DNA from: Phytopythium helicoides
Lineage: Eukaryota > Oomycota > Peronosporomycetes > Pythiales > Pythiaceae
Assembly: GCA_024867545.1 (NCBI GenBank)
Contig: JANFNE010000075.1
Span: forward strand, 62,001-126,000
Reading direction: 5' to 3'
DNA length: 64,000 nucleotides
The first letter of the stretch is position 1, and each line of letters starts with the position of its first letter. A model generated the notes under the pieces. The model worked only from the letters and a program-made list of their open reading frames with translations, was not told the DNA's origin and did no database searches. Made by a program: the position numbers and the translations under genes. This document shows, one piece after another, positions 24,644 through 57,496 of the stretch.

Positions 24644-24715
24644 ACCGCAAGACCGGGTTCGAACCAGTGACCCTTCGAGCTGCAATCGAACGCTCTACCA
24701 CTGAGCTACTCGCGC
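24644..24715 (-). tRNA. tRNA-Cys(GCA), copy 1, altered outer copy
   Basis: The anticodon arm, D arm and T arm equal the other copies. The 3' acceptor strand reads CTTGCGG instead of CTCGCGC, giving a G1-G72 mismatch and one G-U pair. The T6 run is missing; the nearest oligo-T on this strand is a T4 at about 24610-24613. Sequence beyond its 3' end is unrelated to the array. Confidence 0.75.
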
Positions 24716-25356
24716 CTCGAAACAACCACTACCACACACAATTTTCAACATACTCGCATACAACACCACAAACAGATACACACACTTCCCAACAACAACA
24801 ACAACACACACACACACACAAAACAACACATTCAATTACACACACGCGACGCATCAACACACGAAATCACACACTTCCATTCTTACCAGCAACCACAAAA
24901 CACACCACCGACATCACCACAAACGACCAACGACCAACGATGGACCATGCTGACAAACGACAAACCTTCAACAAAAACGCACCAGGGACACCAGGGACAC
25001 GAAATATACACCACACAATACACAGCAGCGAAAAACACGCACACAAGAAAAGTACTCCCAAAACAAACGCGTGTGTGAAAGAAAAAGTACCGCACACGGA
25101 ACAAGAAGAAGAATATGAATAAGAAACAAGAAGCAAGAAACAAGAAACAATAAACAAGAATATGAACAAGGAACAAGAATAAGAATAAGAACAAGAATAT
25201 GAACAAGAATATGAACAAGAAACAAGAAACAAGAAACAAGAAGAGAGGGGTAGAGATCAGACAAGTGGGTCCCGCACCGTGCAAACGGGTCGTAGGAAGA
25301 AGGAAGAGCGAGGGAATGGGAAGGGTGCAAAACAAAACAAAAAAAGGATGCAAAAA

Positions 25357-25428
25357 AGCGCGAGACCGGGTTCGAACCAGTGACCCTTCGAGCTGCAATC
25401 GAACGCTCTACCACTGAGCTACTCGCGC
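25357..25428 (-). tRNA. tRNA-Cys(GCA), copy 2
   Basis: Reference copy. Acceptor stem GCGCGAG/CTCGCGC, D arm GCTC-AGTGGTA-GAGC, anticodon arm TTCGA-TTGCAGC-TCGAA (anticodon GCA), T arm ACTGG-TTCGAAC-CCGGT. The discriminator is T73, the known tRNA-Cys identity base. Internal A box and B box are intact. T6, including base 73, follows as the Pol III terminator. No CCA is encoded and there is no intron. It lies 713 bp from copy 1. Confidence 0.97.
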
Positions 25429-26067
25429 CTCGAAACAACCACTACCACACACAATTTTCAACATACTCGCATACAACACCACAAACAGATACACACACTT
25501 CCCAACAACAACAACAACACACACACACACAAAACAACACATTCAATTACACACACGCGACGCATCAACACACGAAATCACACACTTCCATTCTTACCAG
25601 CAACCACAAAACACACCACCGACATCACCACAAACGACCAACGACCAACGATGGACCATGCTGACAAACGACAAACCTTCAACAAAAACGCACCAGGGAC
25701 ACCAGGGACACGAAATATACACCACACAATACACAGCAGCGAAAAACACGCACACAAGAAAAGTACTCCCAAAACAAACGCGTGTGTGAAAGAAAAAGTA
25801 CCGCACACGGAACAAGAAGAAGAATATGAATAAGAAACAAGAAGCAAGAAACAAGAAACAATAAACAAGAATATGAACAAGGAACAAGAATAAGAATAAG
25901 AACAAGAATATGAACAAGAATATGAACAAGAAACAAGAAACAAGAAACAAGAAGAGAGGGGTAGAGATCAGACAAGTGGGTCCCGCACCGTGCAAACGGG
26001 TCGTAGGAAGAAGGAAGAGCGAGGGAATGGGAAGGGTGCAAAACAAAACAAAAAAAGGATGCAAAAA

Positions 26068-26139
26068 AGCGCGAGACCGGGTTCGAACCAGTGACCCTTC
26101 GAGCTGCAATCGAACGCTCTACCACTGAGCTACTCGCGC
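26068..26139 (-). tRNA. tRNA-Cys(GCA), copy 3
   Basis: Identical to copy 2; 711 bp from it. Confidence 0.97.
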
Positions 26140-26780
26140 CTCGAAACAACCACTACCACACACAATTTTCAACATACTCGCATACAACACCACAAACAGA
26201 TACACACACTTCCCAACAACAACAACAACACACACACACACACAAAACAACACATTCAATTACACACACGCGACGCATCAACACACGAAATCACACACTT
26301 CCATTCTTACCAGCAACCACAAAACACACCACCGACATCACCACAAACGACCAACGACCAACGATGGACCATGCTGACAAACGACAAACCTTCAACAAAA
26401 ACGCACCAGGGACACCAGGGACACGAAATATACACCACACAATACACAGCAGCGAAAAACACGCACACAAGAAAAGTACTCCCAAAACAAACGCGTGTGT
26501 GAAAGAAAAAGTACCGCACACGGAACAAGAAGAAGAATATGAATAAGAAACAAGAAGCAAGAAACAAGAAACAATAAACAAGAATATGAACAAGGAACAA
26601 GAATAAGAATAAGAACAAGAATATGAACAAGAATATGAACAAGAAACAAGAAACAAGAAACAAGAAGAGAGGGGTAGAGATCAGACAAGTGGGTCCCGCA
26701 CCGTGCAAACGGGTCGTAGGAAGAAGGAAGAGCGAGGGAATGGGAAGGGTGCAAAACAAAACAAAAAAAGGATGCAAAAA

Positions 26781-26852
26781 AGCGCGAGACCGGGTTCGAA
26801 CCAGTGACCCTTCGAGCTGCAATCGAACGCTCTACCACTGAGCTACTCGCGC
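26781..26852 (-). tRNA. tRNA-Cys(GCA), copy 4
   Basis: Identical to copy 2; 713 bp from copy 3. Confidence 0.97.
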
Positions 26853-27493
26853 CTCGAAACAACCACTACCACACACAATTTTCAACATACTCGCATACAA
26901 CACCACAAACAGATACACACACTTCCCAACAACAACAACAACACACACACACACACAAAACAACACATTCAATTACACACACGCGACGCATCAACACACG
27001 AAATCACACACTTCCATTCTTACCAGCAACCACAAAACACACCACCGACATCACCACAAACGACCAACGACCAACGATGGACCATGCTGACAAACGACAA
27101 ACCTTCAACAAAAACGCACCAGGGACACCAGGGACACGAAATATACACCACACAATACACAGCAGCGAAAAACACGCACACAAGAAAAGTACTCCCAAAA
27201 CAAACGCGTGTGTGAAAGAAAAAGTACCGCACACGGAACAAGAAGAAGAATATGAATAAGAAACAAGAAGCAAGAAACAAGAAACAATAAACAAGAATAT
27301 GAACAAGGAACAAGAATAAGAATAAGAACAAGAATATGAACAAGAATATGAACAAGAAACAAGAAACAAGAAACAAGAAGAGAGGGGTAGAGATCAGACA
27401 AGTGGGTCCCGCACCGTGCAAACGGGTCGTAGGAAGAAGGAAGAGCGAGGGAATGGGAAGGGTGCAAAACAAAACAAAAAAAGGATGCAAAAA

Positions 27494-27565
27494 AGCGCGA
27501 GACCGGGTTCGAACCAGTGACCCTTCGAGCTGCAATCGAACGCTCTACCACTGAGCTACTCGCGC
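27494..27565 (-). tRNA. tRNA-Cys(GCA), copy 5
   Basis: Identical to copy 2; 713 bp from copy 4. Confidence 0.97.
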
Positions 27566-28204
27566 CTCGAAACAACCACTACCACACACAATTTTCAACA
27601 TACTCGCATACAACACCACAAACAGATACACACACTTCCCAACAACAACAACAACACACACACACACAAAACAACACATTCAATTACACACACGCGACGC
27701 ATCAACACACGAAATCACACACTTCCATTCTTACCAGCAACCACAAAACACACCACCGACATCACCACAAACGACCAACGACCAACGATGGACCATGCTG
27801 ACAAACGACAAACCTTCAACAAAAACGCACCAGGGACACCAGGGACACGAAATATACACCACACAATACACAGCAGCGAAAAACACGCACACAAGAAAAG
27901 TACTCCCAAAACAAACGCGTGTGTGAAAGAAAAAGTACCGCACACGGAACAAGAAGAAGAATATGAATAAGAAACAAGAAGCAAGAAACAAGAAACAATA
28001 AACAAGAATATGAACAAGGAACAAGAATAAGAATAAGAACAAGAATATGAACAAGAATATGAACAAGAAACAAGAAACAAGAAACAAGAAGAGAGGGGTA
28101 GAGATCAGACAAGTGGGTCCCGCACCGTGCAAACGGGTCGTAGGAAGAAGGAAGAGCGAGGGAATGGGAAGGGTGCAAAACAAAACAAAAAAAGGATGCA
28201 AAAA

Positions 28205-28276
28205 AGCGCGAGACCGGGTTCGAACCAGTGACCCTTCGAGCTGCAATCGAACGCTCTACCACTGAGCTACTCGCGC
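28205..28276 (-). tRNA. tRNA-Cys(GCA), copy 6
   Basis: Identical to copy 2; 711 bp from copy 5. Confidence 0.97.
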
Positions 28277-28915
28277 CTCGAAACAACCACTACCACACAC
28301 AATTTTCAACATACTCGCATACAACACCACAAACAGATACACACACTTCCCAACAACAACAACAACACACACACACACAAAACAACACATTCAATTACAC
28401 ACACGCGACGCATCAACACACGAAATCACACACTTCCATTCTTACCAGCAACCACAAAACACACCACCGACATCACCACAAACGACCAACGACCAACGAT
28501 GGACCATGCTGACAAACGACAAACCTTCAACAAAAACGCACCAGGGACACCAGGGACACGAAATATACACCACACAATACACAGCAGCGAAAAACACGCA
28601 CACAAGAAAAGTACTCCCAAAACAAACGCGTGTGTGAAAGAAAAAGTACCGCACACGGAACAAGAAGAAGAATATGAATAAGAAACAAGAAGCAAGAAAC
28701 AAGAAACAATAAACAAGAATATGAACAAGGAACAAGAATAAGAATAAGAACAAGAATATGAACAAGAATATGAACAAGAAAGAAGAAACAAGAAACAAGA
28801 AGAGAGGGGTAGAGATCAGACAAGTGGGTCCCGCACCGTGCAAACGGGTCGTAGGAAGAAGGAAGAGCGAGGGAATGGGAAGGGTGCAAAACAAAACAAA
28901 AAAAGGATGCAAAAA

Positions 28916-28987
28916 AGCGCGAGACCGGGTTCGAACCAGTGACCCTTCGAGCTGCAATCGAACGCTCTACCACTGAGCTACTCGCGC
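28916..28987 (-). tRNA. tRNA-Cys(GCA), copy 7
   Basis: Identical to copy 2; 711 bp from copy 6. The purine tract on its left is the first with the GAAAGAAG variant. Confidence 0.97.
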
Positions 28988-29628
28988 CTCGAAACAACCA
29001 CTACCACACACAATTTTCAACATACTCGCATACAACACCACAAACAGATACACACACTTCCCAACAACAACAACAACACACACACACACACAAAACAACA
29101 CATTCAATTACACACACGCGACGCATCAACACACGAAATCACACACTTCCATTCTTACCAGCAACCACAAAACACACCACCGACATCACCACAAACGACC
29201 AACGACCAACGATGGACCATGCTGACAAACGACAAACCTTCAACAAAAACGCACCAGGGACACCAGGGACACGAAATATACACCACACAATACACAGCAG
29301 CGAAAAACACGCACACAAGAAAAGTACTCCCAAAACAAACGCGTGTGTGAAAGAAAAAGTACCGCACACGGAACAAGAAGAAGAATATGAATAAGAAACA
29401 AGAAGCAAGAAACAAGAAACAATAAACAAGAATATGAACAAGGAACAAGAATAAGAATAAGAACAAGAATATGAACAAGAATATGAACAAGAAAGAAGAA
29501 ACAAGAAACAAGAAGAGAGGGGTAGAGATCAGACAAGTGGGTCCCGCACCGTGCAAACGGGTCGTAGGAAGAAGGAAGAGCGAGGGAATGGGAAGGGTGC
29601 AAAACAAAACAAAAAAAGGATGCAAAAA

Positions 29629-29700
29629 AGCGCGAGACCGGGTTCGAACCAGTGACCCTTCGAGCTGCAATCGAACGCTCTACCACTGAGCTACTCGCGC
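29629..29700 (-). tRNA. tRNA-Cys(GCA), copy 8
   Basis: Identical to copy 2; 713 bp from copy 7. The spacer on its right is the first with the CACACCTCC variant (earlier units have CACACTTCC). Confidence 0.97.
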
Positions 29701-30347
29701 CTCGAAACAACCACTACCACACACAATTTTCAACATACTCGCATACAACACCACAAACAGATACACACACTTCCCAACAACAACAACAACACACACACAC
29801 ACACACACACAAAACAACACATTCAATTACACACACGCGACGCATCAACACACGAAATCACACACCTCCATTCTTACCAGCAACCACAAAACACACCACC
29901 GACATCACCACAAACGACCAACGACCAACGATGGACCATGCTGACAAACGACAAACCTTCAACAAAAACGCACCAGGGACACCAGGGACACGAAATATAC
30001 ACCACACAATACACAGCAGCGAAAAACACGCACACAAGAAAAGTACTCCCAAAACAAACGCGTGTGTGAAAGAAAAAGTACCGCACACGGAACAAGAAGA
30101 AGAATATGAATAAGAAACAAGAAGCAAGAAACAAGAAACAATAAACAAGAATATGAACAAGGAACAAGAATAAGAATAAGAACAAGAATATGAACAAGAA
30201 TATGAACAAGAAACAAGAAACAAGAAACAAGAAGAGAGGGGTAGAGATCAGACAAGTGGGTCCCGCACCGTGCAAACGGGTCGTAGGAAGAAGGAAGAGC
30301 GAGGGAATGGGAAGGGTGCAAAACAAAACAAAAAAAGGATGCAAAAA

Positions 30348-30419
30348 AGCGCGAGACCGGGTTCGAACCAGTGACCCTTCGAGCTGCAATCGAACGCTCT
30401 ACCACTGAGCTACTCGCGC
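30348..30419 (-). tRNA. tRNA-Cys(GCA), copy 9
   Basis: Identical to copy 2; 719 bp from copy 8 because of an expanded CA run. Confidence 0.97.
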
Positions 30420-31058
30420 CTCGAAACAACCACTACCACACACAATTTTCAACATACTCGCATACAACACCACAAACAGATACACACACTTCCCAACAAC
30501 AACAACAACACACACACACACAAAACAACACATTCAATTACACACACGCGACGCATCAACACACGAAATCACACACCTCCATTCTTACCAGCAACCACAA
30601 AACACACCACCGACATCACCACAAACGACCAACGACCAACGATGGACCATGCTGACAAACGACAAACCTTCAACAAAAACGCACCAGGGACACCAGGGAC
30701 ACGAAATATACACCACACAATACACAGCAGCGAAAAACACGCACACAAGAAAAGTACTCCCAAAACAAACGCGTGTGTGAAAGAAAAAGTACCGCACACG
30801 GAACAAGAAGAAGAATATGAATAAGAAACAAGAAGCAAGAAACAAGAAACAATAAACAAGAATATGAACAAGGAACAAGAATAAGAATAAGAACAAGAAT
30901 ATGAACAAGAATATGAACAAGAAAGAAGAAACAAGAAACAAGAAGAGAGGGGTAGAGATCAGACAAGTGGGTCCCGCACCGTGCAAACGGGTCGTAGGAA
31001 GAAGGAAGAGCGAGGGAATGGGAAGGGTGCAAAACAAAACAAAAAAAGGATGCAAAAA

Positions 31059-31130
31059 AGCGCGAGACCGGGTTCGAACCAGTGACCCTTCGAGCTGCAA
31101 TCGAACGCTCTACCACTGAGCTACTCGCGC
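31059..31130 (-). tRNA. tRNA-Cys(GCA), copy 10
   Basis: Identical to copy 2; 711 bp from copy 9. Confidence 0.97.
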
Positions 31131-31777
31131 CTCGAAACAACCACTACCACACACAATTTTCAACATACTCGCATACAACACCACAAACAGATACACACAC
31201 TTCCCAACAACAACAACAACACACACACACACACACACACAAAACAACACATTCAATTACACACACGCGACGCATCAACACACGAAATCACACACCTCCA
31301 TTCTTACCAGCAACCACAAAACACACCACCGACATCACCACAAACGACCAACGACCAACGATGGACCATGCTGACAAACGACAAACCTTCAACAAAAACG
31401 CACCAGGGACACCAGGGACACGAAATATACACCACACAATACACAGCAGCGAAAAACACGCACACAAGAAAAGTACTCCCAAAACAAACGCGTGTGTGAA
31501 AGAAAAAGTACCGCACACGGAACAAGAAGAAGAATATGAATAAGAAACAAGAAGCAAGAAGCAAGAAACAATAAACAAGAATATGAACAAGGAACAAGAA
31601 TAAGAATAAGAACAAGAATATGAACAAGAATATGAACAAGAAAGAAGAAACAAGAAACAAGAAGAGAGGGGTAGAGATCAGACAAGTGGGTCCCGCACCG
31701 TGCAAACGGGTCGTAGGAAGAAGGAAGAGCGAGGGAATGGGAAGGGTGCAAAACAAAACAAAAAAAGGATGCAAAAA

Positions 31778-31849
31778 AGCGCGAGACCGGGTTCGAACCA
31801 GTGACCCTTCGAGCTGCAATCGAACGCTCTACCACTGAGCTACTCGCGC
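31778..31849 (-). tRNA. tRNA-Cys(GCA), copy 11
   Basis: Identical to copy 2; 719 bp from copy 10, the second unit with the expanded CA run. Confidence 0.97.
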
Positions 31850-32490
31850 CTCGAAACAACCACTACCACACACAATTTTCAACATACTCGCATACAACAC
31901 CACAAACAGATACACACACTTCCCAACAACAACAACAACACACACACACACACAAAACAACACATTCAATTACACACACGCGACGCATCAACACACGAAA
32001 TCACACACCTCCATTCTTACCAGCAACCACAAAACACACCACCGACATCACCACAAACGACCAACGACCAACGATGGACCATGCTGACAAACGACAAACC
32101 TTCAACAAAAACGCACCAGGGACACCAGGGACACGAAATATACACCACACAATACACAGCAGCGAAAAACACGCACACAAGAAAAGTACTCCCAAAACAA
32201 ACGCGTGTGTGAAAGAAAAAGTACCGCACACGGAACAAGAAGAAGAATATGAATAAGAAACAAGAAGCAAGAAACAAGAAACAATAAACAAGAATATGAA
32301 CAAGGAACAAGAATAAGAATAAGAACAAGAATATGAACAAGAATATGAACAAGAAACAAGAAACAAGAAACAAGAAGAGAGGGGTAGAGATCAGACAAGT
32401 GGGTCCCGCACCGTGCAAACGGGTCGTAGGAAGAAGGAAGAGCGAGGGAATGGGAAGGGTGCAAAACAAAACAAAAAAAGGATGCAAAAA

Positions 32491-32562
32491 AGCGCGAGAC
32501 CGGGTTCGAACCAGTGACCCTTCGAGCTGCAATCGAACGCTCTACCACTGAGCTACTCGCGC
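32491..32562 (-). tRNA. tRNA-Cys(GCA), copy 12
   Basis: Identical to copy 2; 713 bp from copy 11. Confidence 0.97.
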
Positions 32563-33203
32563 CTCGAAACAACCACTACCACACACAATTTTCAACATAC
32601 TCGCATACAACACCACAAACAGATACACACACTTCCCAACAACAACAACAACACACACACACACACAAAACAACACATTCAATTACACACACGCGACGCA
32701 TCAACACACGAAATCACACACCTCCATTCTTACCAGCAACCACAAAACACACCACCGACATCACCACAAACGACCAACGACCAACGATGGACCATGCTGA
32801 CAAACGACAAACCTTCAACAAAAACGCACCAGGGACACCAGGGACACGAAATATACACCACACAATACACAGCAGCGAAAAACACGCACACAAGAAAAGT
32901 ACTCCCAAAACAAACGCGTGTGTGAAAGAAAAAGTACCGCACACGGAACAAGAAGAAGAATATGAATAAGAAACAAGAAGCAAGAAGCAAGAAACAATAA
33001 ACAAGAATATGAACAAGGAACAAGAATAAGAATAAGAACAAGAATATGAACAAGAATATGAACAAGAAACAAGAAAGAAGAAACAAGAAGAGAGGGGTAG
33101 AGATCAGACAAGTGGGTCCCGCACCGTGCAAACGGGTCGTAGGAAGAAGGAAGAGCGAGGGAATGGGAAGGGTGCAAAACAAAACAAAAAAAGGATGCAA
33201 AAA

Positions 33204-33275
33204 AGCGCGAGACCGGGTTCGAACCAGTGACCCTTCGAGCTGCAATCGAACGCTCTACCACTGAGCTACTCGCGC
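33204..33275 (-). tRNA. tRNA-Cys(GCA), copy 13
   Basis: Identical to copy 2; 713 bp from copy 12. Confidence 0.97.
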
Positions 33276-33916
33276 CTCGAAACAACCACTACCACACACA
33301 ATTTTCAACATACTCGCATACAACACCACAAACAGATACACACACTTCCCAACAACAACAACAACACACACACACACACAAAACAACACATTCAATTACA
33401 CACACGCGACGCATCAACACACGAAATCACACACCTCCATTCTTACCAGCAACCACAAAACACACCACCGACATCACCACAAACGACCAACGACCAACGA
33501 TGGACCATGCTGACAAACGACAAACCTTCAACAAAAACGCACCAGGGACACCAGGGACACGAAATATACACCACACAATACACAGCAGCGAAAAACACGC
33601 ACACAAGAAAAGTACTCCCAAAACAAACGCGTGTGTGAAAGAAAAAGTACCGCACACGGAACAAGAAGAAGAATATGAATAAGAAACAAGAAGCAAGAAG
33701 CAAGAAACAATAAACAAGAATATGAACAAGGAACAAGAATAAGAATAAGAACAAGAATATGAACAAGAATATGAACAAGAAACAAGAAAGAAGAAACAAG
33801 AAGAGAGGGGTAGAGATCAGACAAGTGGGTCCCGCACCGTGCAAACGGGTCGTAGGAAGAAGGAAGAGCGAGGGAATGGGAAGGGTGCAAAACAAAACAA
33901 AAAAAGGATGCAAAAA

Positions 33917-33988
33917 AGCGCGAGACCGGGTTCGAACCAGTGACCCTTCGAGCTGCAATCGAACGCTCTACCACTGAGCTACTCGCGC
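33917..33988 (-). tRNA. tRNA-Cys(GCA), copy 14
   Basis: Identical to copy 2; 713 bp from copy 13. Confidence 0.97.
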
Positions 33989-34629
33989 CTCGAAACAACC
34001 ACTACCACACACAATTTTCAACATACTCGCATACAACACCACAAACAGATACACACACTTCCCAACAACAACAACAACACACACACACACACAAAACAAC
34101 ACATTCAATTACACACACGCGACGCATCAACACACGAAATCACACACCTCCATTCTTACCAGCAACCACAAAACACACCACCGACATCACCACAAACGAC
34201 CAACGACCAACGATGGACCATGCTGACAAACGACAAACCTTCAACAAAAACGCACCAGGGACACCAGGGACACGAAATATACACCACACAATACACAGCA
34301 GCGAAAAACACGCACACAAGAAAAGTACTCCCAAAACAAACGCGTGTGTGAAAGAAAAAGTACCGCACACGGAACAAGAAGAAGAATATGAATAAGAAAC
34401 AAGAAGCAAGAAACAAGAAACAATAAACAAGAATATGAACAAGGAACAAGAATAAGAATAAGAACAAGAATATGAACAAGAATATGAACAAGAAACAAGA
34501 AAGAAGAAACAAGAAGAGAGGGGTAGAGATCAGACAAGTGGGTCCCGCACCGTGCAAACGGGTCGTAGGAAGAAGGAAGAGCGAGGGAATGGGAAGGGTG
34601 CAAAACAAAACAAAAAAAGGATGCAAAAA

Positions 34630-34701
34630 AGCGCGAGACCGGGTTCGAACCAGTGACCCTTCGAGCTGCAATCGAACGCTCTACCACTGAGCTACTCGCG
34701 C
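34630..34701 (-). tRNA. tRNA-Cys(GCA), copy 15
   Basis: Identical to copy 2; 713 bp from copy 14. The spacer on its right has CACAACACAAC in place of CACAAAACAAC. Confidence 0.97.
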
Positions 34702-35342
34702 CTCGAAACAACCACTACCACACACAATTTTCAACATACTCGCATACAACACCACAAACAGATACACACACTTCCCAACAACAACAACAACACACACACA
34801 CACACAACACAACACATTCAATTACACACACGCGACGCATCAACACACGAAATCACACACCTCCATTCTTACCAGCAACCACAAAACACACCACCGACAT
34901 CACCACAAACGACCAACGACCAACGATGGACCATGCTGACAAACGACAAACCTTCAACAAAAACGCACCAGGGACACCAGGGACACGAAATATACACCAC
35001 ACAATACACAGCAGCGAAAAACACGCACACAAGAAAAGTACTCCCAAAACAAACGCGTGTGTGAAAGAAAAAGTACCGCACACGGAACAAGAAGAAGAAT
35101 ATGAATAAGAAACAAGAAGCAAGAAACAAGAAACAATAAACAAGAATATGAACAAGGAACAAGAATAAGAATAAGAACAAGAATATGAACAAGAATATGA
35201 ACAAGAAACAAGAAACAAGAAACAAGAAGAGAGGGGTAGAGATCAGACAAGTGGGTCCCGCACCGTGCAAACGGGTCGTAGGAAGAAGGAAGAGCGAGGG
35301 AATGGGAAGGGTGCAAAACAAAACAAAAAAAGGATGCAAAAA

Positions 35343-35414
35343 AGCGCGAGACCGGGTTCGAACCAGTGACCCTTCGAGCTGCAATCGAACGCTCTACCAC
35401 TGAGCTACTCGCGC
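35343..35414 (-). tRNA. tRNA-Cys(GCA), copy 16
   Basis: Identical to copy 2; 713 bp from copy 15. Confidence 0.97.
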
Positions 35415-36055
35415 CTCGAAACAACCACTACCACACACAATTTTCAACATACTCGCATACAACACCACAAACAGATACACACACTTCCCAACAACAACAA
35501 CAACACACACACACACACAAAACAACACATTCAATTACACACACGCGACGCATCAACACACGAAATCACACACCTCCATTCTTACCAGCAACCACAAAAC
35601 ACACCACCGACATCACCACAAACGACCAACGACCAACGATGGACCATGCTGACAAACGACAAACCTTCAACAAAAACGCACCAGGGACACCAGGGACACG
35701 AAATATACACCACACAATACACAGCAGCGAAAAACACGCACACAAGAAAAGTACTCCCAAAACAAACGCGTGTGTGAAAGAAAAAGTACCGCACACGGAA
35801 CAAGAAGAAGAATATGAATAAGAAACAAGAAGCAAGAAACAAGAAACAATAAACAAGAATATGAACAAGGAACAAGAATAAGAATAAGAACAAGAATATG
35901 AACAAGAATATGAACAAGAAAGAAGAAAGAAGAAACAAGAAGAGAGGGGTAGAGATCAGACAAGTGGGTCCCGCACCGTGCAAACGGGTCGTAGGAAGAA
36001 GGAAGAGCGAGGGAATGGGAAGGGTGCAAAACAAAACAAAAAAAGGATGCAAAAA

Positions 36056-36127
36056 AGCGCGAGACCGGGTTCGAACCAGTGACCCTTCGAGCTGCAATCG
36101 AACGCTCTACCACTGAGCTACTCGCGC
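36056..36127 (-). tRNA. tRNA-Cys(GCA), copy 17
   Basis: Identical to copy 2; 713 bp from copy 16. Confidence 0.97.
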
Positions 36128-36766
36128 CTCGAAACAACCACTACCACACACAATTTTCAACATACTCGCATACAACACCACAAACAGATACACACACTTC
36201 CCAACAACAACAACAACACACACACACACAAAACAACACATTCAATTACACACACGCGACGCATCAACACACGAAATCACACACCTCCATTCTTACCAGC
36301 AACCACAAAACACACCACCGACATCACCACAAACGACCAACGACCAACGATGGACCATGCTGACAAACGACAAACCTTCAACAAAAACGCACCAGGGACA
36401 CCAGGGACACGAAATATACACCACACAATACACAGCAGCGAAAAACACGCACACAAGAAAAGTACTCCCAAAACAAACGCGTGTGTGAAAGAAAAAGTAC
36501 CGCACACGGAACAAGAAGAAGAATATGAATAAGAAACAAGAAGCAAGAAGCAAGAAACAATAAACAAGAATATGAACAAGGAACAAGAATAAGAATAAGA
36601 ACAAGAATATGAACAAGAATATGAACAAGAAACAAGAAAGAAGAAACAAGAAGAGAGGGGTAGAGATCAGACAAGTGGGTCCCGCACCGTGCAAACGGGT
36701 CGTAGGAAGAAGGAAGAGCGAGGGAATGGGAAGGGTGCAAAACAAAACAAAAAAAGGATGCAAAAA

Positions 36767-36838
36767 AGCGCGAGACCGGGTTCGAACCAGTGACCCTTCG
36801 AGCTGCAATCGAACGCTCTACCACTGAGCTACTCGCGC
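36767..36838 (-). tRNA. tRNA-Cys(GCA), copy 18
   Basis: Identical to copy 2; 711 bp from copy 17. Confidence 0.97.
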
Positions 36839-38901: not shown

Positions 38902-38973
38902 AGCGCGAGACCGGGTTCGAACCAGTGACCCTTCGAGCTGCAATCGAACGCTCTACCACTGAGCTACTCGCGC
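38902..38973 (-). tRNA. tRNA-Cys(GCA), copy 21
   Basis: Identical to copy 2; 711 bp from copy 20. Confidence 0.97.
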
Positions 38974-39614: not shown

Positions 39615-39686
39615 AGCGCGAGACCGGGTTCGAACCAGTGACCCTTCGAGCTGCAATCGAACGCTCTACCACTGAGCTACTCGCGC
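39615..39686 (-). tRNA. tRNA-Cys(GCA), copy 22
   Basis: Identical to copy 2; 713 bp from copy 21. Confidence 0.97.
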
Positions 39687-40325
39687 CTCGAAACAACCAC
39701 TACCACACACAATTTTCAACATACTCGCATACAACACCACAAACAGATACACACACTTCCCAACAACAACAACAACACACACACACACAAAACAACACAT
39801 TCAATTACACACACGCGACGCATCAACACACGAAATCACACACCTCCATTCTTACCAGCAACCACAAAACACACCACCGACATCACCACAAACGACCAAC
39901 GACCAACGATGGACCATGCTGACAAACGACAAACCTTCAACAAAAACGCACCAGGGACACCAGGGACACGAAATATACACCACACAATACACAGCAGCGA
40001 AAAACACGCACACAAGAAAAGTACTCCCAAAACAAACGCGTGTGTGAAAGAAAAAGTACCGCACACGGAACAAGAAGAAGAATATGAATAAGAAACAAGA
40101 AGCAAGAAGCAAGAAACAATAAACAAGAATATGAACAAGGAACAAGAATAAGAATAAGAACAAGAATATGAACAAGAATATGAACAAGAAAGAAGAAAGA
40201 AGAAACAAGAAGAGAGGGGTAGAGATCAGACAAGTGGGTCCCGCACCGTGCAAACGGGTCGTAGGAAGAAGGAAGAGCGAGGGAATGGGAAGGGTGCAAA
40301 ACAAAACAAAAAAAGGATGCAAAAA

Positions 40326-40397
40326 AGCGCGAGACCGGGTTCGAACCAGTGACCCTTCGAGCTGCAATCGAACGCTCTACCACTGAGCTACTCGCGC
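40326..40397 (-). tRNA. tRNA-Cys(GCA), copy 23
   Basis: Identical to copy 2; 711 bp from copy 22. Confidence 0.97.
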
Positions 40398-40992
40398 CTC
40401 GAAACAACCACTACCACACACAATTTTCAACATACTCGCATACAACACCACAAACAGATACACACACTTCCCAACAACAACAACAACACACACACACACA
40501 CAAAACAACACATTCAATTACACACACGCGACGCATCAACACACGAAATCACACACCTCCATTCTTACCAGCAACCACAAAACACACCACCGACATCACC
40601 ACAAACGACCAACGACCAACGATGGACCATGCTGACAAACGACAAACCTTCAACAAAAACGCACCAGGGACACCAGGGACACGAAATATACACCACACAA
40701 TACACAGCAGCGAAAACACGCACACAAGAAAAGTACTCCCAAAACAAACGCGTGTGTGAAAGAAAAAGTACCGCACACGGAACAAGAAGAAGAATATGAA
40801 TAAGAAACAAGAAGCAAGAAACAAGAAACAATAAACAAGAATATGAACAAGGAACAAGAATAAGAATAAGAACAAGAATATGAACAAGAATATGAACAAG
40901 AAAGAAGAAAGAAGAAACAAGAAGAGAGGGGTAGAGATCAGACAAGTGGGTCCCGCACCGTGCAAACGGGTCGTAGGAAGAAGGAAGAGCGA

Positions 40993-41485
40993 GGCATAGC
41001 AAGGGTGGCAAAAAACGGATGCAAAAAGCGCGAGACCGGGTTCGAACCAGTGACCCTTCGAGCTGCAATCGAACGCTCTACCACTGAGCTACTCGCGCCT
41101 CGAAACAACCACAACCACACACAATTTTCAACATACTCGCATACAACACCACAACACACATTCACACACTTCCCACCAACAACAACACACACAGAAACGA
41201 CACAAACACACACGAAACTACATACATTTACACACATACACATCAACACGCAAACTCACACACACTTCCATCTTTCCCATCAACCACAAATCACACCACC
41301 GACATCACCACAAACAACGAACGACGGCCCGTACCGACAACCGACAATCCTTCAACAAAAACGCACCAGGGAGACGAAATATACACAACACAATCGACAG
41401 CGGCGAAAAACACGCACACAAGAAAAGTACTCCCGAAAAAACGCGTGTATGAAAGAAAAAGTACAACACACGGAACAAGAACAAG
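40993..41485 (-). repeat. Class-B segment embedded in the class-A array (around copy 24)
   Basis: Sequence switches from class A to class B after GAAGAGCGAG near 40992 and back near 41485. Within it the spacer differs at many sites and indels from neighbouring units, while the tRNA is unchanged. Confidence 0.85.
41027..41098 (-). tRNA. tRNA-Cys(GCA), copy 24, in class-B sequence
   Basis: tRNA identical to copy 2, but both flanks are class B and the terminator is T5. It is 701 bp from copy 23. Confidence 0.97.
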
Positions 41486-41730
41486 AATATGAATAAGAAA
41501 CAAGAAGCAAGAAACAAGAAACAATAAACAAGAATATGAACAAGGAACAAGAATAAGAATAAGAACAAGAATATGAACAAGAATATGAACAAGAAACAAG
41601 AAAGAAGAAACAAGAAGAGAGGGGTAGAGATCAGACAAGTGGGTCCCGCACCGTGCAAACGGGTCGTAGGAAGAAGGAAGAGCGAGGGAATGGGAAGGGT
41701 GCAAAACAAAACAAAAAAAGGATGCAAAAA

Positions 41731-41802
41731 AGCGCGAGACCGGGTTCGAACCAGTGACCCTTCGAGCTGCAATCGAACGCTCTACCACTGAGCTACTCGC
41801 GC
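41731..41802 (-). tRNA. tRNA-Cys(GCA), copy 25
   Basis: Identical to copy 2; 704 bp from copy 24. Its left flank has returned to class A. Confidence 0.97.
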
Positions 41803-42443
41803 CTCGAAACAACCACTACCACACACAATTTTCAACATACTCGCATACAACACCACAAACAGATACACACACTTCCCAACAACAACAACAACACACACAC
41901 ACACACAAAACAACACATTCAATTACACACACGCGACGCATCAACACACGAAATCACACACCTCCATTCTTACCAGCAACCACAAAACACACCACCGACA
42001 TCACCACAAACGACCAACGACCAACGATGGACCATGCTGACAAACGACAAACCTTCAACAAAAACGCACCAGGGACACCAGGGACACGAAATATACACCA
42101 CACAATACACAGCAGCGAAAAACACGCACACAAGAAAAGTACTCCCAAAACAAACGCGTGTGTGAAAGAAAAAGTACCGCACACGGAACAAGAAGAAGAA
42201 TATGAATAAGAAACAAGAAGCAAGAAACAAGAAACAATAAACAAGAATATGAACAAGGAACAAGAATAAGAATAAGAACAAGAATATGAACAAGAATATG
42301 AACAAGAAAGAAGAAAGAAGAAACAAGAAGAGAGGGGTAGAGATCAGACAAGTGGGTCCCGCACCGTGCAAACGGGTCGTAGGAAGAAGGAAGAGCGAGG
42401 GAATGGGAAGGGTGCAAAACAAAACAAAAAAAGGATGCAAAAA

Positions 42444-42515
42444 AGCGCGAGACCGGGTTCGAACCAGTGACCCTTCGAGCTGCAATCGAACGCTCTACCA
42501 CTGAGCTACTCGCGC
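42444..42515 (-). tRNA. tRNA-Cys(GCA), copy 26
   Basis: Identical to copy 2; 713 bp from copy 25. Confidence 0.97.
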
Positions 42516-43156
42516 CTCGAAACAACCACTACCACACACAATTTTCAACATACTCGCATACAACACCACAAACAGATACACACACTTCCCAACAACAACA
42601 ACAACACACACACACACACAAAACAACACATTCAATTACACACACGCGACGCATCAACACACGAAATCACACACCTCCATTCTTACCAGCAACCACAAAA
42701 CACACCACCGACATCACCACAAACGACCAACGACCAACGATGGACCATGCTGACAAACGACAAACCTTCAACAAAAACGCACCAGGGACACCAGGGACAC
42801 GAAATATACACCACACAATACACAGCAGCGAAAAACACGCACACAAGAAAAGTACTCCCAAAACAAACGCGTGTGTGAAAGAAAAAGTACCGCACACGGA
42901 ACAAGAAGAAGAATATGAATAAGAAACAAGAAGCAAGAAACAAGAAACAATAAACAAGAATATGAACAAGGAACAAGAATAAGAATAAGAACAAGAATAT
43001 GAACAAGAATATGAACAAGAAAGAAGAAAGAAGAAACAAGAAGAGAGGGGTAGAGATCAGACAAGTGGGTCCCGCACCGTGCAAACGGGTCGTAGGAAGA
43101 AGGAAGAGCGAGGGAATGGGAAGGGTGCAAAACAAAACAAAAAAAGGATGCAAAAA

Positions 43157-43228
43157 AGCGCGAGACCGGGTTCGAACCAGTGACCCTTCGAGCTGCAATC
43201 GAACGCTCTACCACTGAGCTACTCGCGC
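43157..43228 (-). tRNA. tRNA-Cys(GCA), copy 27
   Basis: Identical to copy 2; 713 bp from copy 26. Confidence 0.97.
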
Positions 43229-43867
43229 CTCGAAACAACCACTACCACACACAATTTTCAACATACTCGCATACAACACCACAAACAGATACACACACTT
43301 CCCAACAACAACAACAACACACACACACACAAAACAACACATTCAATTACACACACGCGACGCATCAACACACGAAATCACACACCTCCATTCTTACCAG
43401 CAACCACAAAACACACCACCGACATCACCACAAACGACCAACGACCAACGATGGACCATGCTGACAAACGACAAACCTTCAACAAAAACGCACCAGGGAC
43501 ACCAGGGACACGAAATATACACCACACAATACACAGCAGCGAAAAACACGCACACAAGAAAAGTACTCCCAAAACAAACGCGTGTGTGAAAGAAAAAGTA
43601 CCGCACACGGAACAAGAAGAAGAATATGAATAAGAAACAAGAAGCAAGAAACAAGAAACAATAAACAAGAATATGAACAAGGAACAAGAATAAGAATAAG
43701 AACAAGAATATGAACAAGAATATGAACAAGAAAGAAGAAAGAAGAAACAAGAAGAGAGGGGTAGAGATCAGACAAGTGGGTCCCGCACCGTGCAAACGGG
43801 TCGTAGGAAGAAGGAAGAGCGAGGGAATGGGAAGGGTGCAAAACAAAACAAAAAAAGGATGCAAAAA

Positions 43868-43939
43868 AGCGCGAGACCGGGTTCGAACCAGTGACCCTTC
43901 GAGCTGCAATCGAACGCTCTACCACTGAGCTACTCGCGC
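43868..43939 (-). tRNA. tRNA-Cys(GCA), copy 28
   Basis: Identical to copy 2; 711 bp from copy 27. Confidence 0.97.
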
Positions 43940-44561
43940 CTCGAAACAACCACTACCACACACAATTTTCAACATACTCGCATACAACACCACAAACAGA
44001 TACACACACTTCCCAACAACAACAACAACACACACACACACACAAAACAACACATTCAATTACACACACGCGACGCATCAACACACGAAATCACACACCT
44101 CCATTCTTACCAGCAACCACAAAACACACCACCGACATCACCACAAACGACCAACGACCAACGATGGACCATGCTGACAAACGACAAACCTTCAACAAAA
44201 ACGCACCAGGGACACCAGGGACACGAAATATACACCACACAATACACAGCAGCGAAAAACACGCACACAAGAAAAGTACTCCCAAAACAAACGCGTGTGT
44301 GAAAGAAAAAGTACCGCACACGGAACAAGAAGAAGAATATGAATAAGAAACAAGAAGCAAGAAGCAAGAAACAATAAACAAGAATATGAACAAGGAACAA
44401 GAATAAGAATAAGAACAAGAATATGAACAAGAATATGAACAAGAAACAAGAAAGAAGAAACAAGAAGAGAGGGGTAGAGATAATCAAGTGGACTCCGCAA
44501 CGTGCAAACAGCTAGTAGGAAGAGCGAGGCATAGCAAGGGTGGCAGAAAAGGGATGCAAAA

Positions 44562-44633
44562 AGCGCGAGACCGGGTTCGAACCAGTGACCCTTCGAGCTG
44601 CAATCGAACGCTCTACCACTGAGCTACTCGCGC
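44562..44633 (-). tRNA. tRNA-Cys(GCA), copy 29, in class-B sequence
   Basis: tRNA identical to copy 2 with class-B flanks and a T5 terminator; 694 bp from copy 28. Confidence 0.97.
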
Positions 44634-45189
44634 CTCGAAACAACCACAACCACACACAATTTTCAACATACTCGCATACAACACCACAACACACATTCAC
44701 ACACTTCCCACCAACAACAACACACACAGAAACGACACAAACACACACGAAACTACATACATTTACACACATACACATCAACACGCAAACTCACACACAC
44801 TTCCATCTTTCCCATCAACCACAAATCACACCACCGACATCACCACAAACAACGAACGACGGCCCGTACCGACAACCGACAATCCTTCAACAAAAACGCA
44901 CCAGGGAGACGAAATATACACAACACAATCGACAGCGGCGAAAAACACGCACACAAGAAAAGTACTCCCGAAAAAACGCGTGTATGAAAGAAAAAGTACA
45001 ACACACGGAACAAGAACAAGAACAAAAACAAGAATAAGAACAAAAACAAAAACAAGAATAAGAACAAAAACAAAAACAAGAATAAGAATAAGAACAGAGG
45101 GGTAGAGATAATCAAGTGGACTCCGCAACGTGCAAACAGCTAGTAGGAAGAGCGAGGCATAGCAAGGGTGGCAGAAAAGGGATGCAAAA

Positions 45190-45261
45190 AGCGCGAGACC
45201 GGGTTCGAACCAGTGACCCTTCGAGCTGCAATCGAACGCTCTACCACTGAGCTACTCGCGC
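45190..45261 (-). tRNA. tRNA-Cys(GCA), copy 30, in class-B sequence
   Basis: tRNA identical to copy 2. The interval from copy 29 (628 bp) is the only complete class-B unit and the shortest in the array. Confidence 0.97.
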
Positions 45262-45899
45262 CTCGAAACAACCACAACCACACACAATTTTCAACATACT
45301 CGCATACAACACCACAACACACATTCACACACTTCCCACCAACAACAACACACACAGAAACGACACAAACACACACAACACATTCAATTACACACACGCG
45401 ACGCATCAACACACGAAATCACACACCTCCATTCTTACCAGCAACCACAAAACACACCACCGACATCACCACAAACGACCAACGACCAACGATGGACCAT
45501 GCTGACAAACGACAAACCTTCAACAAAAACGCACCAGGGACACGAAATATACACCACACAATACACAGCAGCGAAAAACACGCACACAAGAAAAGTACTC
45601 CCAAAACAAACGCGTGTGTGAAAGAAAAAGTACCGCACACGGAACAAGAAGAAGAATATGAATAAGAAACTAGAAGCAAGAAGCAAGAAACAATAAACAA
45701 GAATATGAACAAGGAACAAGAATAAGAATAAGAACAAGAATATGAACAAGAATATGAACAAGAAACAAGAAAGAAGAAACAAGAAGAGAGGGGTAGAGAT
45801 CAGACAAGTGGGTCCCGCACCGTGCAAACGGGTCGTAGGAAGAAGGAAGAGCGAGGGAATGGGAAGGGTGCAAAACAAAACAAAAAAAGGATGCAAAAA

Positions 45900-45971
45900 A
45901 GCGCGAGACCGGGTTCGAACCAGTGACCCTTCGAGCTGCAATCGAACGCTCTACCACTGAGCTACTCGCGC
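45900..45971 (-). tRNA. tRNA-Cys(GCA), copy 31
   Basis: Identical to copy 2; 710 bp from copy 30. The intervening spacer switches from class B to class A near 45378. Confidence 0.97.
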
Positions 45972-46612
45972 CTCGAAACAACCACTACCACACACAATTT
46001 TCAACATACTCGCATACAACACCACAAACAGATACACACACTTCCCAACAACAACAACAACACACACACACACACAAAACAACACATTCAATTACACACA
46101 CGCGACGCATCAACACACGAAATCACACACCTCCATTCTTACCAGCAACCACAAAACACACCACCGACATCACCACAAACGACCAACGACCAACGATGGA
46201 CCATGCTGACAAACGACAAACCTTCAACAAAAACGCACCAGGGACACCAGGGACACGAAATATACACCACACAATACACAGCAGCGAAAAACACGCACAC
46301 AAGAAAAGTACTCCCAAAACAAACGCGTGTGTGAAAGAAAAAGTACCGCACACGGAACAAGAAGAAGAATATGAATAAGAAACAAGAAGCAAGAAACAAG
46401 AAACAATAAACAAGAATATGAACAAGGAACAAGAATAAGAATAAGAACAAGAATATGAACAAGAATATGAACAAGAAACAAGAAAGAAGAAACAAGAAGA
46501 GAGGGGTAGAGATCAGACAAGTGGGTCCCGCACCGTGCAAACGGGTCGTAGGAAGAAGGAAGAGCGAGGGAATGGGAAGGGTGCAAAACAAAACAAAAAA
46601 AGGATGCAAAAA

Positions 46613-46684
46613 AGCGCGAGACCGGGTTCGAACCAGTGACCCTTCGAGCTGCAATCGAACGCTCTACCACTGAGCTACTCGCGC
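46613..46684 (-). tRNA. tRNA-Cys(GCA), copy 32
   Basis: Identical to copy 2; 713 bp from copy 31. Confidence 0.97.
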
Positions 46685-47323
46685 CTCGAAACAACCACTA
46701 CCACACACAATTTTCAACATACTCGCATACAACACCACAAACAGATACACACACTTCCCAACAACAACAACAACAACACACACACACACAAAACAACACA
46801 TTCAATTACACACACACGCATCAACACACGAAATCACACACCTCCATTCTTACCAGCAACCACAAAACACACCACCGACATCACCACAAACGACCAACGA
46901 CCAACGATGGACCATGCTGACAAACGACAAACCTTCAACAAAAACGCACCAGGGACACCAGGGACACGAAATATACACCACACAATACACAGCAGCGAAA
47001 AACACGCACACAAGAAAAGTACTCCCAAAACAAACGCGTGTGTGAAAGAAAAAGTACCGCACACGGAACAAGAAGAAGAATATGAATAAGAAACAAGAAG
47101 CAAGAAGCAAGAAACAATAAACAAGAATATGAACAAGGAACAAGAATAAGAATAAGAACAAGAATATGAACAAGAATATGAACAAGAAACAAGAAAGAAG
47201 AAACAAGAAGAGAGGGGTAGAGATCAGACAAGTGGGTCCCGCACCGTGCAAACGGGTCGTAGGAAGAAGGAAGAGCGAGGGAATGGGAAGGGTGCAAAAC
47301 AAAACAAAAAAAGGATGCAAAAA

Positions 47324-47395
47324 AGCGCGAGACCGGGTTCGAACCAGTGACCCTTCGAGCTGCAATCGAACGCTCTACCACTGAGCTACTCGCGC
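47324..47395 (-). tRNA. tRNA-Cys(GCA), copy 33
   Basis: Identical to copy 2; 711 bp from copy 32. The spacer between them has an extra AAC and lacks CG in the ACACACGCGACGC segment. Confidence 0.97.
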
Positions 47396-48034
47396 CTCGA
47401 AACAACCACTACCACACACAATTTTCAACATACTCGCATACAACACCACAAACAGATACACACACTTCCCAACAACAACAACAACACACACACACACACA
47501 AAACAACACATTCAATTACACACACGCGACGCATCAACACACGAAATCACACACCTCCATTCTTACCAGCAACCACAAAACACACCACCGACATCACCAC
47601 AAACGACCAACGACCAACGATGGACCATGCTGACAAACGACAAACCTTCAACAAAAACGCACCAGGGACACCAGGGACACGAAATATACACCCCACAATA
47701 GACAGCAGCGAAAACACGCACACAAGAAAAGTACTCCCAAAACAAACGCGTGTGTGAAAGAAAAAGTACCGCACACGGAAAAGAAGAAGAATATGAATAA
47801 GAAACAAGAAGCAAGAAACAAGAAACAATAAACAAGAATATGAACAAGGAACAAGAATAAGAATAAGAACAAGAATATGAACAAGAATATGAACAAGAAA
47901 GAAGAAAGAAGAAACAAGAAGAGAGGGGTAGAGATCAGACAAGTGGGTCCCGCACCGTGCAAACGGGTCGTAGGAAGAAGGAAGAGCGAGGGAATGGGAA
48001 GGGTGCAAAACAAAACAAAAAAAGGATGCAAAAA

Positions 48035-48106
48035 AGCGCGAGACCGGGTTCGAACCAGTGACCCTTCGAGCTGCAATCGAACGCTCTACCACTGAGCTAC
48101 TCGCGC
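48035..48106 (-). tRNA. tRNA-Cys(GCA), copy 34
   Basis: Identical to copy 2; 711 bp from copy 33. The spacer between them has several private changes (CACCCCACAATAGAC). Confidence 0.97.
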
Positions 48107-48736
48107 CTCGAAACAACCACTACCACACACAATTTTCAACATACTCGCATACAACACCACAAACAGATACACACACTTCCCAACAACAACAACAACACAC
48201 ACACACACAAAACAACACATTCAATTACACACACGCGACGCATCAACACACGAAATCACACACCTCCATTCTTACCAGCAACCACAAAACACACCACCGA
48301 CATCACCACAAACGACCAACGACCAACGATGGACCATGCTGACAAACGACAAACCTTCAACAAAAACGCACCAGGGACACGAAATATACACCACACAATA
48401 CACAGCAGCGAAAAACACGCACACAAGAAAAGTACTCCCAAAACAAACGCGTGTGTGAAAGAAAAAGTACCGCACACGGAACAAGAAGAAGAATATGAAT
48501 AAGAAACAAGAAGCAAGAAGCAAGAAACAATAAACAAGAATATGAACAAGGAACAAGAATAAGAATAAGAACAAGAATATGAACAAGAATATGAACAAGA
48601 AACAAGAAAGAAGAAACAAGAAGAGAGGGGTAGAGATCAGACAAGTGGGTCCCGCACCGTGCAAACGGGTCGTAGGAAGAAGGAAGAGCGAGGGAATGGG
48701 AAGGGTGCAAAACAAAACAAAAAAAGGATGCAAAAA

Positions 48737-48808
48737 AGCGCGAGACCGGGTTCGAACCAGTGACCCTTCGAGCTGCAATCGAACGCTCTACCACTGAGCT
48801 ACTCGCGC
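48737..48808 (-). tRNA. tRNA-Cys(GCA), copy 35
   Basis: Identical to copy 2; 702 bp from copy 34 because one CACCAGGGA copy is missing. Confidence 0.97.
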
Positions 48809-49449
48809 CTCGAAACAACCACTACCACACACAATTTTCAACATACTCGCATACAACACCACAAACAGATACACACACTTCCCAACAACAACAACAACAC
48901 ACACACACACACAAAACAACACATTCAATTACACACACGCGACGCATCAACACACGAAATCACACACTTCCATTCTTACCAGCAACCACAAAACACACCA
49001 CCGACATCACCACAAACGACCAACGACCAACGATGGACCATGCTGACAAACGACAAACCTTCAACAAAAACGCACCAGGGACACCAGGGACACGAAATAT
49101 ACACCACACAATACACAGCAGCGAAAAACACGCACACAAGAAAAGTACTCCCAAAACAAACGCGTGTGTGAAAGAAAAAGTACCGCACACGGAACAAGAA
49201 GAAGAATATGAATAAGAAACAAGAAGCAAGAAGCAAGAAACAATAAACAAGAATATGAACAAGGAACAAGAATAAGAATAAGAACAAGAATATGAACAAG
49301 AATATGAACAAGAAACAAGAAAGAAGAAACAAGAAGAGAGGGGTAGAGATCAGACAAGTGGGTCCCGCACCGTGCAAACGGGTCGTAGGAAGAAGGAAGA
49401 GCGAGGGAATGGGAAGGGTGCAAAACAAAACAAAAAAAGGATGCAAAAA

Positions 49450-49521
49450 AGCGCGAGACCGGGTTCGAACCAGTGACCCTTCGAGCTGCAATCGAACGCT
49501 CTACCACTGAGCTACTCGCGC
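49450..49521 (-). tRNA. tRNA-Cys(GCA), copy 36
   Basis: Identical to copy 2; 713 bp from copy 35. The intervening spacer has the CACACTTCC variant. Confidence 0.97.
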
Positions 49522-50151
49522 CTCGAAACAACCACTACCACACACAATTTTCAACATACTCGCATACAACACCACAAACAGATACACACACTTCCCAACA
49601 ACAACAACAACAACACACACACACACAAAACAACACATTCAATTACACACACACGCATCAACACACGAAATCACACACCTCCATTCTTACCAGCAACCAC
49701 AAAACACACCACCGACATCACCACAAACGACCAACGACCAACGATGGACCATGCTGACAAACGACAAACCTTCAACAAAAACGCACCAGGGACACGAAAT
49801 ATACACCACACAATACACAGCAGCGAAAAACACGCACACAAGAAAAGTACTCCCAAAACAAACGCGTGTGTGAAAGAAAAAGTACCGCACACGGAACAAG
49901 AAGAAGAATATGAATAAGAAACAAGAAGCAAGAAACAAGAAACAATAAACAAGAATATGAACAAGGAACAAGAATAAGAATAAGAACAAGAATATGAACA
50001 AGAATATGAACAAGAAAGAAGAAAGAAGAAACAAGAAGAGAGGGGTAGAGATCAGACAAGTGGGTCCCGCACCGTGCAAACGGGTCGTAGGAAGAAGGAA
50101 GAGCGAGGGAATGGGAAGGGTGCAAAACAAAACAAAAAAAGGATGCAAAAA

Positions 50152-50223
50152 AGCGCGAGACCGGGTTCGAACCAGTGACCCTTCGAGCTGCAATCGAACG
50201 CTCTACCACTGAGCTACTCGCGC
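50152..50223 (-). tRNA. tRNA-Cys(GCA), copy 37
   Basis: Identical to copy 2; 702 bp from copy 36, again with one CACCAGGGA copy missing. Confidence 0.97.
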
Positions 50224-50861
50224 CTCGAAACAACCACTACCACACACAATTTTCAACATACTCGCATACAACACCACAAACAGATACACACACTTCCCAA
50301 CAACAACAACACACACACACACACAAAACAACACATTCAATTACACACACGCGACGCATCAACACACGAAATCACACACCTCCATTCTTACCAGCAACCA
50401 CAAAACACACCACCGACATCACCACAAACGACCAACGACCAACGATGGACCATGCTGACAAACGACAAACCTTCAACAAAAACGCACCAGGGACACCAGG
50501 GACACGAAATATACACCACACAATACACAGCAGCGAAAAACACGCACACAAGAAAAGTACTCCCAAAACAAACGCGTGTGTGAAAGAAAAAGTACCGCAC
50601 ACGGAACAAGAAGAAGAATATGAATAAGAAACAAGAAGCAAGAAACAAGAAACAATAAACAAGAATATGAACAAGGAACAAGAATAAGAATAAGAACAAG
50701 AATATGAACAAGAATATGAACAAGAAAGAAGAAAGAAGAAACAAGAAGAGAGGGGTAGAGATCAGACAAGTGGGTCCCGCACCGTGCAAACGGGTCGTAG
50801 GAAGAAGGAAGAGCGAGGGAATGGGAAGGGTGCAAAACAAAACAAAAAAAGGATGCAAAAA

Positions 50862-50933
50862 AGCGCGAGACCGGGTTCGAACCAGTGACCCTTCGAGCTG
50901 CAATCGAACGCTCTACCACTGAGCTACTCGCGC
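50862..50933 (-). tRNA. tRNA-Cys(GCA), copy 38, last copy
   Basis: Identical to copy 2; 710 bp from copy 37. The spacer on its right is cut off at 51259, so this is the right-most tRNA of the array. Confidence 0.97.
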
Positions 50934-51259
50934 CTCGAAACAACCACTACCACACACAATTTTCAACATACTCGCATACAACACCACAAACAGATACACA
51001 CACTTCCCAACAACAACAACAACACACACACACACAACACAACACATTCAATTACACACACACGCATCAACACACGAAATCACACACTTCCATTCTTACC
51101 AGCAACCACAAAACACACCACCGACATCACCACAAACGACCAACGACCAACGATGGACCATGCTGACAAACGACAAACCTTCAACAAAAACGCACCAGGG
51201 ACACCAGGGACACGAAATATACACCACACAATACACAGCAGCGAAAAACACGCACACAA

Positions 51260-57494: not shown

Positions 57495-57496
57495 GA

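Follow-up and report, generated by a model that had tools for sequence, protein, structure and literature searches.

Thirty-eight transfer RNA (tRNA) genes for cysteine, all of the tRNA-Cys(GCA) type and all on the minus strand, lie head to tail in the window, this being the whole 64-kb stretch of DNA analysed here (positions 62001-126000 of the 262,200-bp contig C74, in an assembly of 49.06 Mb and 100 contigs). ARAGORN placed the genes from 24643 to 50934 of the window, and Rfam recovered the same 38 at 24644-50933, with a mean period of 708.6 bp and a range of 628-719 bp. The array as a whole, including the 5' flank of its last gene, occupies 24644-51259 (minus strand). One side is marked by the first copy, hereafter the edge copy, unit homology stopping within its 3' end; on the other, homology continues upstream of the last gene as far as 51259, and this truncated 5' flank (50934-51259, minus strand) closes the array. 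A previous description made from the letters of the window (the sequence-only reading) had proposed 38 one-strand tRNA-Cys(GCA) genes in units of ~0.71 kb, 37 identical copies and an end at 51259, all in agreement with the present results. The occurrence of 38 tRNA-Cys genes in register is judged to be far beyond chance.

The 72-nt gene is letter-identical in 37/38 copies, each of which scores 66.7 bits with Rfam and carries T at position 73, as expected from the earlier proposal of intact-looking RNA polymerase III (Pol III) genes in tandem. In a typical copy (26068-26139, minus strand), we take TAGCTCAGTGG (26122-26132, minus strand) to be the A box and GGTTCGAACCC (26079-26089, minus strand) is presumably the B box. 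Terminators of T5-T6 had also been proposed, and a T5 run starting at the first base past the gene was indeed found in 34/38 copies, but three copies have T4 instead and one has no such run. The latter is the edge copy (24644-24715, minus strand), which scores 56.5 bits and contains two changes, both in the 3' acceptor strand.

The GC (guanine plus cytosine) content through the array is ~43-45%, so that the Cys spacers must be regarded as strand-skewed and not simply AT-rich, with A and T fractions of 0.095 and 0.486, respectively, on the tRNA sense strand. A typical spacer (25429-26067, minus strand) comprises T5 and T7 runs in the 3' trailer of the gene at 26068, a GAACAA-type tract, which constitutes a short tandem repeat in these spacers, and the G+T-rich DNA upstream of the gene at 25357.

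Sequence differences among repeat units

Mean pairwise identity among 37 aligned units is 0.985, and 27 of the 36 full units that start at identical tRNA-Cys copies have distinct sequences. A divergent haplotype is common to units 24 and 29 and is partly present in units 23, 28 and 30. Units 23 and 24 lie at 40326-41730 and units 28 to 30 at 43868-45899 (both minus strand), unit 29 being the shortest of the array (628 bp). These grouped variants are therefore located in the interior and not at the array edge, while both gene-body changes are found in the edge copy. Five positions apart, unit 21 matches unit 26 exactly and unit 22 differs from unit 27 at a single column; a simple five-unit duplication behind the haplotype pattern is only suggested.

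Units 23, 24, 28, 29 and 30, picked for their divergence, were compared with the consensus; as they have sequence in common, they do not amount to independent tests. Unit 29 differs from it at 80/545 spacer sites and at 0/72 tRNA sites, a contrast with a chance of ~1e-5 for independent sites, and unit 24 differs at 44/621 spacer sites, the chance of an invariant tRNA being 0.005 under the same assumption. The 60 nt upstream of the tRNA carry at most one change per unit among these five (1 each in units 24, 29 and 30). Since this upstream stretch is nearly unchanged, either selection acting on the tRNA together with its promoter or conversion tracts extending over both would fit.

This variation also bears on whether the assembly process could have produced the array from one or a few genuine units. 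Variation between assemblies is known for tRNA arrays in oomycetes (PMC9584435), but here most full units are distinct, their variants fall in shared blocks, and the array joins unique DNA at both ends within one contig. Such an artefact is hence scarcely credible, and stuttering of the assembly was considered unlikely given that the units differ.

tRNA arrays elsewhere in the genome

A DNA search of the whole assembly with the 72-nt gene returned 38 matches, all within the array, with 38/38 candidates scored. At the sensitivity of this search, the tRNA-Cys(GCA) family occupies a single locus.

Besides the Cys array, six kinds of array were found at seven places. The searches scored the best 40 candidates for Ser-CGA (of 244), Met-CAT (of 78), Lys-TTT (of 148), Trp-CCA (of 61) and Thr-TGT (of 46), and the counts for Ser-CGA, Met-CAT, Lys, Trp-CCA and Thr-TGT are lower bounds because only part of the candidates was scored. 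On this basis, contig C57 holds at least 40 identical Thr-TGT genes and C3 at least 40 Ser-CGA copies, with at least 25 Met-CAT copies on C6 and at least 15 on C66. The Lys-TTT search gave 12 matches on C14, which are Lys-TTT, and 28 on C21, where the four copies inspected are Lys-CTT. A mixed array on C4 combines Ser-GCT, Trp-CCA (on the opposite strand, at least 40 copies), Thr-CGT and U6 small nuclear RNA genes. Five U6 genes were identified by Rfam inside this array in one 10-kb stretch, and all 48 scored U6 matches, the best of 1790 candidates, fall within C4:740793-853415. In the 10-kb stretch, some tRNA copies score 39.0-50.4 bits versus 60.6-64.2 bits for others (Rfam), indicating a lower uniformity of the mixed array.

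A single tRNA-Sec gene above the cut-off was detected among the best 53 of 4778 candidates scored; it lies on C15, with no second tRNA in the surrounding 2 kb. When 25 contig starts were sampled without foreknowledge of tRNA (8 of 10 kb and 17 of 1.5 kb), a tRNA array was encountered in 2/25, namely on C3 and C6. As a separate observation, the tRNA arrays on C3, C6, C21 and C66 start within ~1 kb of the contig start, and such arrays may break assembly.

These arrays are relevant to a cysteine-specific role, either as a dosage reservoir or as a source of tRNA fragments, both of which had been contemplated in the sequence-only reading. The high copy number (38) speaks in its favour, but Thr-TGT, Ser-CGA, Met-CAT and Trp-CCA each reach at least 40 scored copies in the same genome, and other isoacceptors thus form arrays whose scored copy numbers are comparable to or above that of Cys, though Lys-TTT has 12. 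With Thr-TGT, Lys-TTT, Lys-CTT, Ser-CGA, Met-CAT and the genes of the mixed array all arranged alike, a role restricted to cysteine loses its basis; it is very unlikely and was rejected.

Oriented composition of the flanks of arrayed genes

On the tRNA sense strand, the 120 nt upstream of the gene show a G+T fraction of 0.76-0.91 at 10/10 arrayed tRNA loci (one copy each, Met being taken at both places). In a background of 141 kb, sampled as 20,000 overlapping windows, a fraction of no more than 0.0002 reaches such values, 120 nt being the sole length tried. Trp-CCA, despite its location on the opposite strand of the C4 mixed unit, is also G+T-rich upstream on its own sense strand. The controls are few, two loci only, and both lack the G+T-rich 5' flank: U6 in the C4 mixed unit (0.60, reached by 0.068 of the background) and the sole tRNA-Sec found (0.58, reached by 0.10). 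Downstream of the gene, the C+T fraction is 0.64-0.82 at 9/10 loci, the exception being Thr-TGT (0.53, 0.36 of the background); GC skew, exceptionally, stays positive downstream of Lys-CTT.

When representative spacers were binned, the upstream G+T effect extended over at least 200 bp (about 200-400) for Cys, Thr-TGT, Lys-TTT and Ser-CGA, these flanks being C-poor. Exceptions are found in Met, where the region 80-240 nt upstream is A+G-rich and not G+T-rich, and in the Lys-TTT and Met spacers, whose central part is A-rich. The median number of T4+ runs per Cys spacer is 11 on the sense strand versus 1 on the other strand. The same bias is clear for Thr-TGT (8 versus 0), Ser-CGA (5 versus 1) and Lys-CTT (8 versus 1), and weak for Lys-TTT (11 versus 7) and Met (6 versus 4). 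These sense-strand runs could stop read-through into the next gene.

We tentatively propose that arrayed tRNA genes in this oomycete share a transcription-oriented flank signature, which might reflect (i) selection for promoter and terminator surroundings suited to Pol III genes with internal boxes, or (ii) a mutational scar that differs between the strands, left by intense Pol III transcription and amplified through concerted evolution. A partial precedent for oriented flank composition is provided by the pyrimidine bias of Entamoeba histolytica spacers, on average 70.8% pyrimidine on one strand (PMC2652664). Oriented G+T-rich 5' flanks of arrayed tRNA genes are not mentioned in the tRNA section of PMC9584435, and no oomycete work on strand asymmetry or transcription-associated mutagenesis in connection with tRNA genes was found among the entries listed (12 of 81 and 12 of 37), as judged by titles and abstract starts. 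By way of this oriented composition, the reasons for the particular sequence of such arrays become accessible to testing.

Genomic surroundings

Ten flanking open reading frames (ORFs) were scanned with Pfam. Matches on the left side of the array correspond to FYVE, kinesin, mitochondrial carrier, histidine biosynthesis and glutamine amidotransferase, and those on the right side to SIR2 and class-III aminotransferase; two further matches, to TPR on the left and to a transporter on the right, fall below the Pfam cut-off, and 1 of the 10 ORFs scanned gave no Pfam match. A gamma-aminobutyric acid (GABA) transaminase is encoded at 60129-61757, 9 kb from the array. Behind two closer matches at 92 and 86%, its best organism-named matches are in Phytophthora fragariae (76%), Nothophytophthora (75%), P. 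nicotianae (74%), Pythium oligandrum (72%) and Globisporangium splendens (71%), from which the host would be an oomycete with a relationship near Phytophthora, as judged on this one protein. No tRNA gene was found in the 10-kb stretches adjoining the window on either side.

The array might alternatively be a structural locus, in the form of a TFIIIC-bound chromatin boundary, a centromere-proximal element or a fragile site. Roles of this kind have been published for tRNA repeats elsewhere, as for human 1q23.3 (PMC4041453), and nuclear organisation is raised as a possibility by those who described the tRNA arrays of Phytophthora infestans (PMC9584435). Against this, both flanks are gene-rich, and the presence of several arrayed isoacceptors on several contigs points to a general arrangement. 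A structural role is consequently unlikely, and the centromere reading put forward earlier was rejected as a misfit with gene-rich DNA on both sides.

Three low-complexity ORFs located on both sides of the array (5275-7815, 56997-57572 and 57358-58218) are related and contain a common run, HERALETQRELERRSEMSAVLA, perhaps belonging to a repeated gene family or element.

Comparison with known tRNA arrays

In P. infestans, 7,519 tRNA genes are reported, ~64% of them in arrays of one gene, and all 271 tRNA-Cys-GCA genes form one tandem array on chromosome 6 (Chr6) with a unit of 513 nt (PMC9584435). Where single-gene arrays occupy one chromosome in that species, they consist of near-identical repeats with few variants, often grouped and near the edge, and an array of Thr-CGT, Trp-CCA and Ser-GCT is also described. 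For representative families, tRNA copy numbers are concordant with Illumina read depth, and the authors infer unequal crossing-over for the tRNA arrays (PMC9584435). The locus studied here resembles this system in being a head-to-tail array of one isoacceptor (38/38 tRNA-Cys(GCA), same strand) at one locus, the likeness extending down to the isoacceptor itself, as well as in its near-identical repeats with grouped variants and in the accompanying arrays of other isoacceptors, including that of Thr-CGT, Trp-CCA and Ser-GCT. It differs by its fewer copies (38 versus 271), its longer unit (~709 bp versus 513 nt) and the 49-Mb genome, and also by U6 being within the mixed array, a gene unmentioned in the tRNA section of PMC9584435.

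The sequence-only reading knew of no such array described in oomycetes. The novelty of an oomycete array of one isoacceptor fails, however, because P. infestans has all of its 271 tRNA-Cys-GCA genes in one array (PMC9584435). In the library searched, further papers on oomycete tRNA arrays were not found among the entries listed (5 of 6, 15 of 473, 12 of 12, 11 of 11 and 6 of 6), as judged by titles and abstract starts. The presence of the tRNA-array habit in a 49-Mb genome, compared with the 219 Mb of pseudochromosomes of P. infestans, indicates that it is not confined to the large genome of the latter, and the mixed Ser-GCT/Trp-CCA/Thr-CGT array, being both reported in P. infestans and seen here, is suggested to be old.

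Beyond oomycetes, the comparison with Entamoeba made in the sequence-only reading is apt, since both show tRNA genes arranged in tandem, short tandem repeats within the spacers and, in some Entamoeba species as here, a strand bias of spacer composition (PMC2652664). Entamoeba units, nevertheless, hold up to 5 tRNA genes, and the spacers of E. histolytica are 80% A+T, whereas the Cys unit has one tRNA gene, its array is ~43-45% GC, and its host is an oomycete. The Arabidopsis thaliana tRNA-Cys-GCA cluster also consists of repeating units (0.4 kb), but contains only 4 genes (PMC10701932). The human 1q23.3 tRNA variable number tandem repeat, with 9-43 units per allele, is likewise a tandem tRNA repeat, but of 7.3-kb GC-rich units that bind CTCF (PMC4041453).

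Origin and maintenance of the array

Altogether, we consider, with a probability of about 0.87, that the locus is a single-locus tRNA-Cys(GCA) family stored as a head-to-tail array of ~709-bp units, a Pol III multigene array of the ordinary sort that lies in gene-rich DNA and is not cysteine-specific. Starting from the gene structure, the copy number in the assembly, the single locus at the sensitivity of the search, the arrays of other isoacceptors and the mosaic units observed, we infer that each unit would be transcribed as its own Pol III gene, the A and B boxes being internal and a T run serving as terminator, while unequal crossing-over and/or gene conversion would hold the units nearly uniform and selection would keep the tRNA body intact. 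The Cys array would then represent one case of a genome-wide habit of tandem tRNA arrays, already described in P. infestans.

Several points weigh against this interpretation. The DNA search behind the single locus would miss a strongly diverged tRNA-Cys, and the Rfam search of the assembly scored the best 63 of 3472 candidates. The contrasts between spacer and gene in units 24 and 29 are not independent, because one haplotype is common to both, and units 23, 28 and 30 taken singly do not show a significant contrast (P0 0.5, 0.12 and 0.32, respectively). Gene conversion with its centre on the tRNA gene could also account for the invariance of the tRNA. Nor is the five-unit duplication a clean one, since 28 alignment columns separate units 23 and 28, and 112 separate units 24 and 29. 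Finally, similarity does not fall clearly with distance between units, mean identity being 0.987 at distance 1, 0.984 at distance 3 and 0.996 at distance 30 (7 pairs); distance-dependent similarity was rejected as a sign of local exchange in view of the lack of a clear trend.

The array could instead be a neutral macrosatellite, grown by unequal exchange without benefit and with most copies redundant or silent. This explanation overlaps with the ordinary multigene array favoured here, from which it differs only in how many copies matter, and it merits serious consideration at somewhat less than an even chance. In P. infestans, the relation between tRNA gene number and codon use is only modest (R = 0.41), and the families with the greatest expansion read rare codons (PMC9584435). 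The Entamoeba authors, in turn, see codon use as unlinked to gene number and suspect that many copies are inactive (PMC2652664). Isoacceptor copy numbers also vary within the present genome, as exemplified by the 12 Lys-TTT among the scored candidates. Against this, the tRNA body is invariant in units whose spacers have diverged by 7-15%, and 37/38 copies keep a T4 or T5 run immediately downstream of the gene.

Minor observations on other RNA genes

Among the best 47 of 2394 candidates, 5S genes appear in tandem groups, with 26 on C56, 12 on C99, 8 on C98 and 1 on C79. The tandem groups on C56, C98 and C99, of 525 or 533 bp, show gaps of ~9-13 kb between several of them and are perhaps linked to large ribosomal DNA units. 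The small contigs C89, C91 and C92 contain several kinds of tRNA, the same matches occurring in both orientations, and are perhaps mitochondrial with an inverted repeat.

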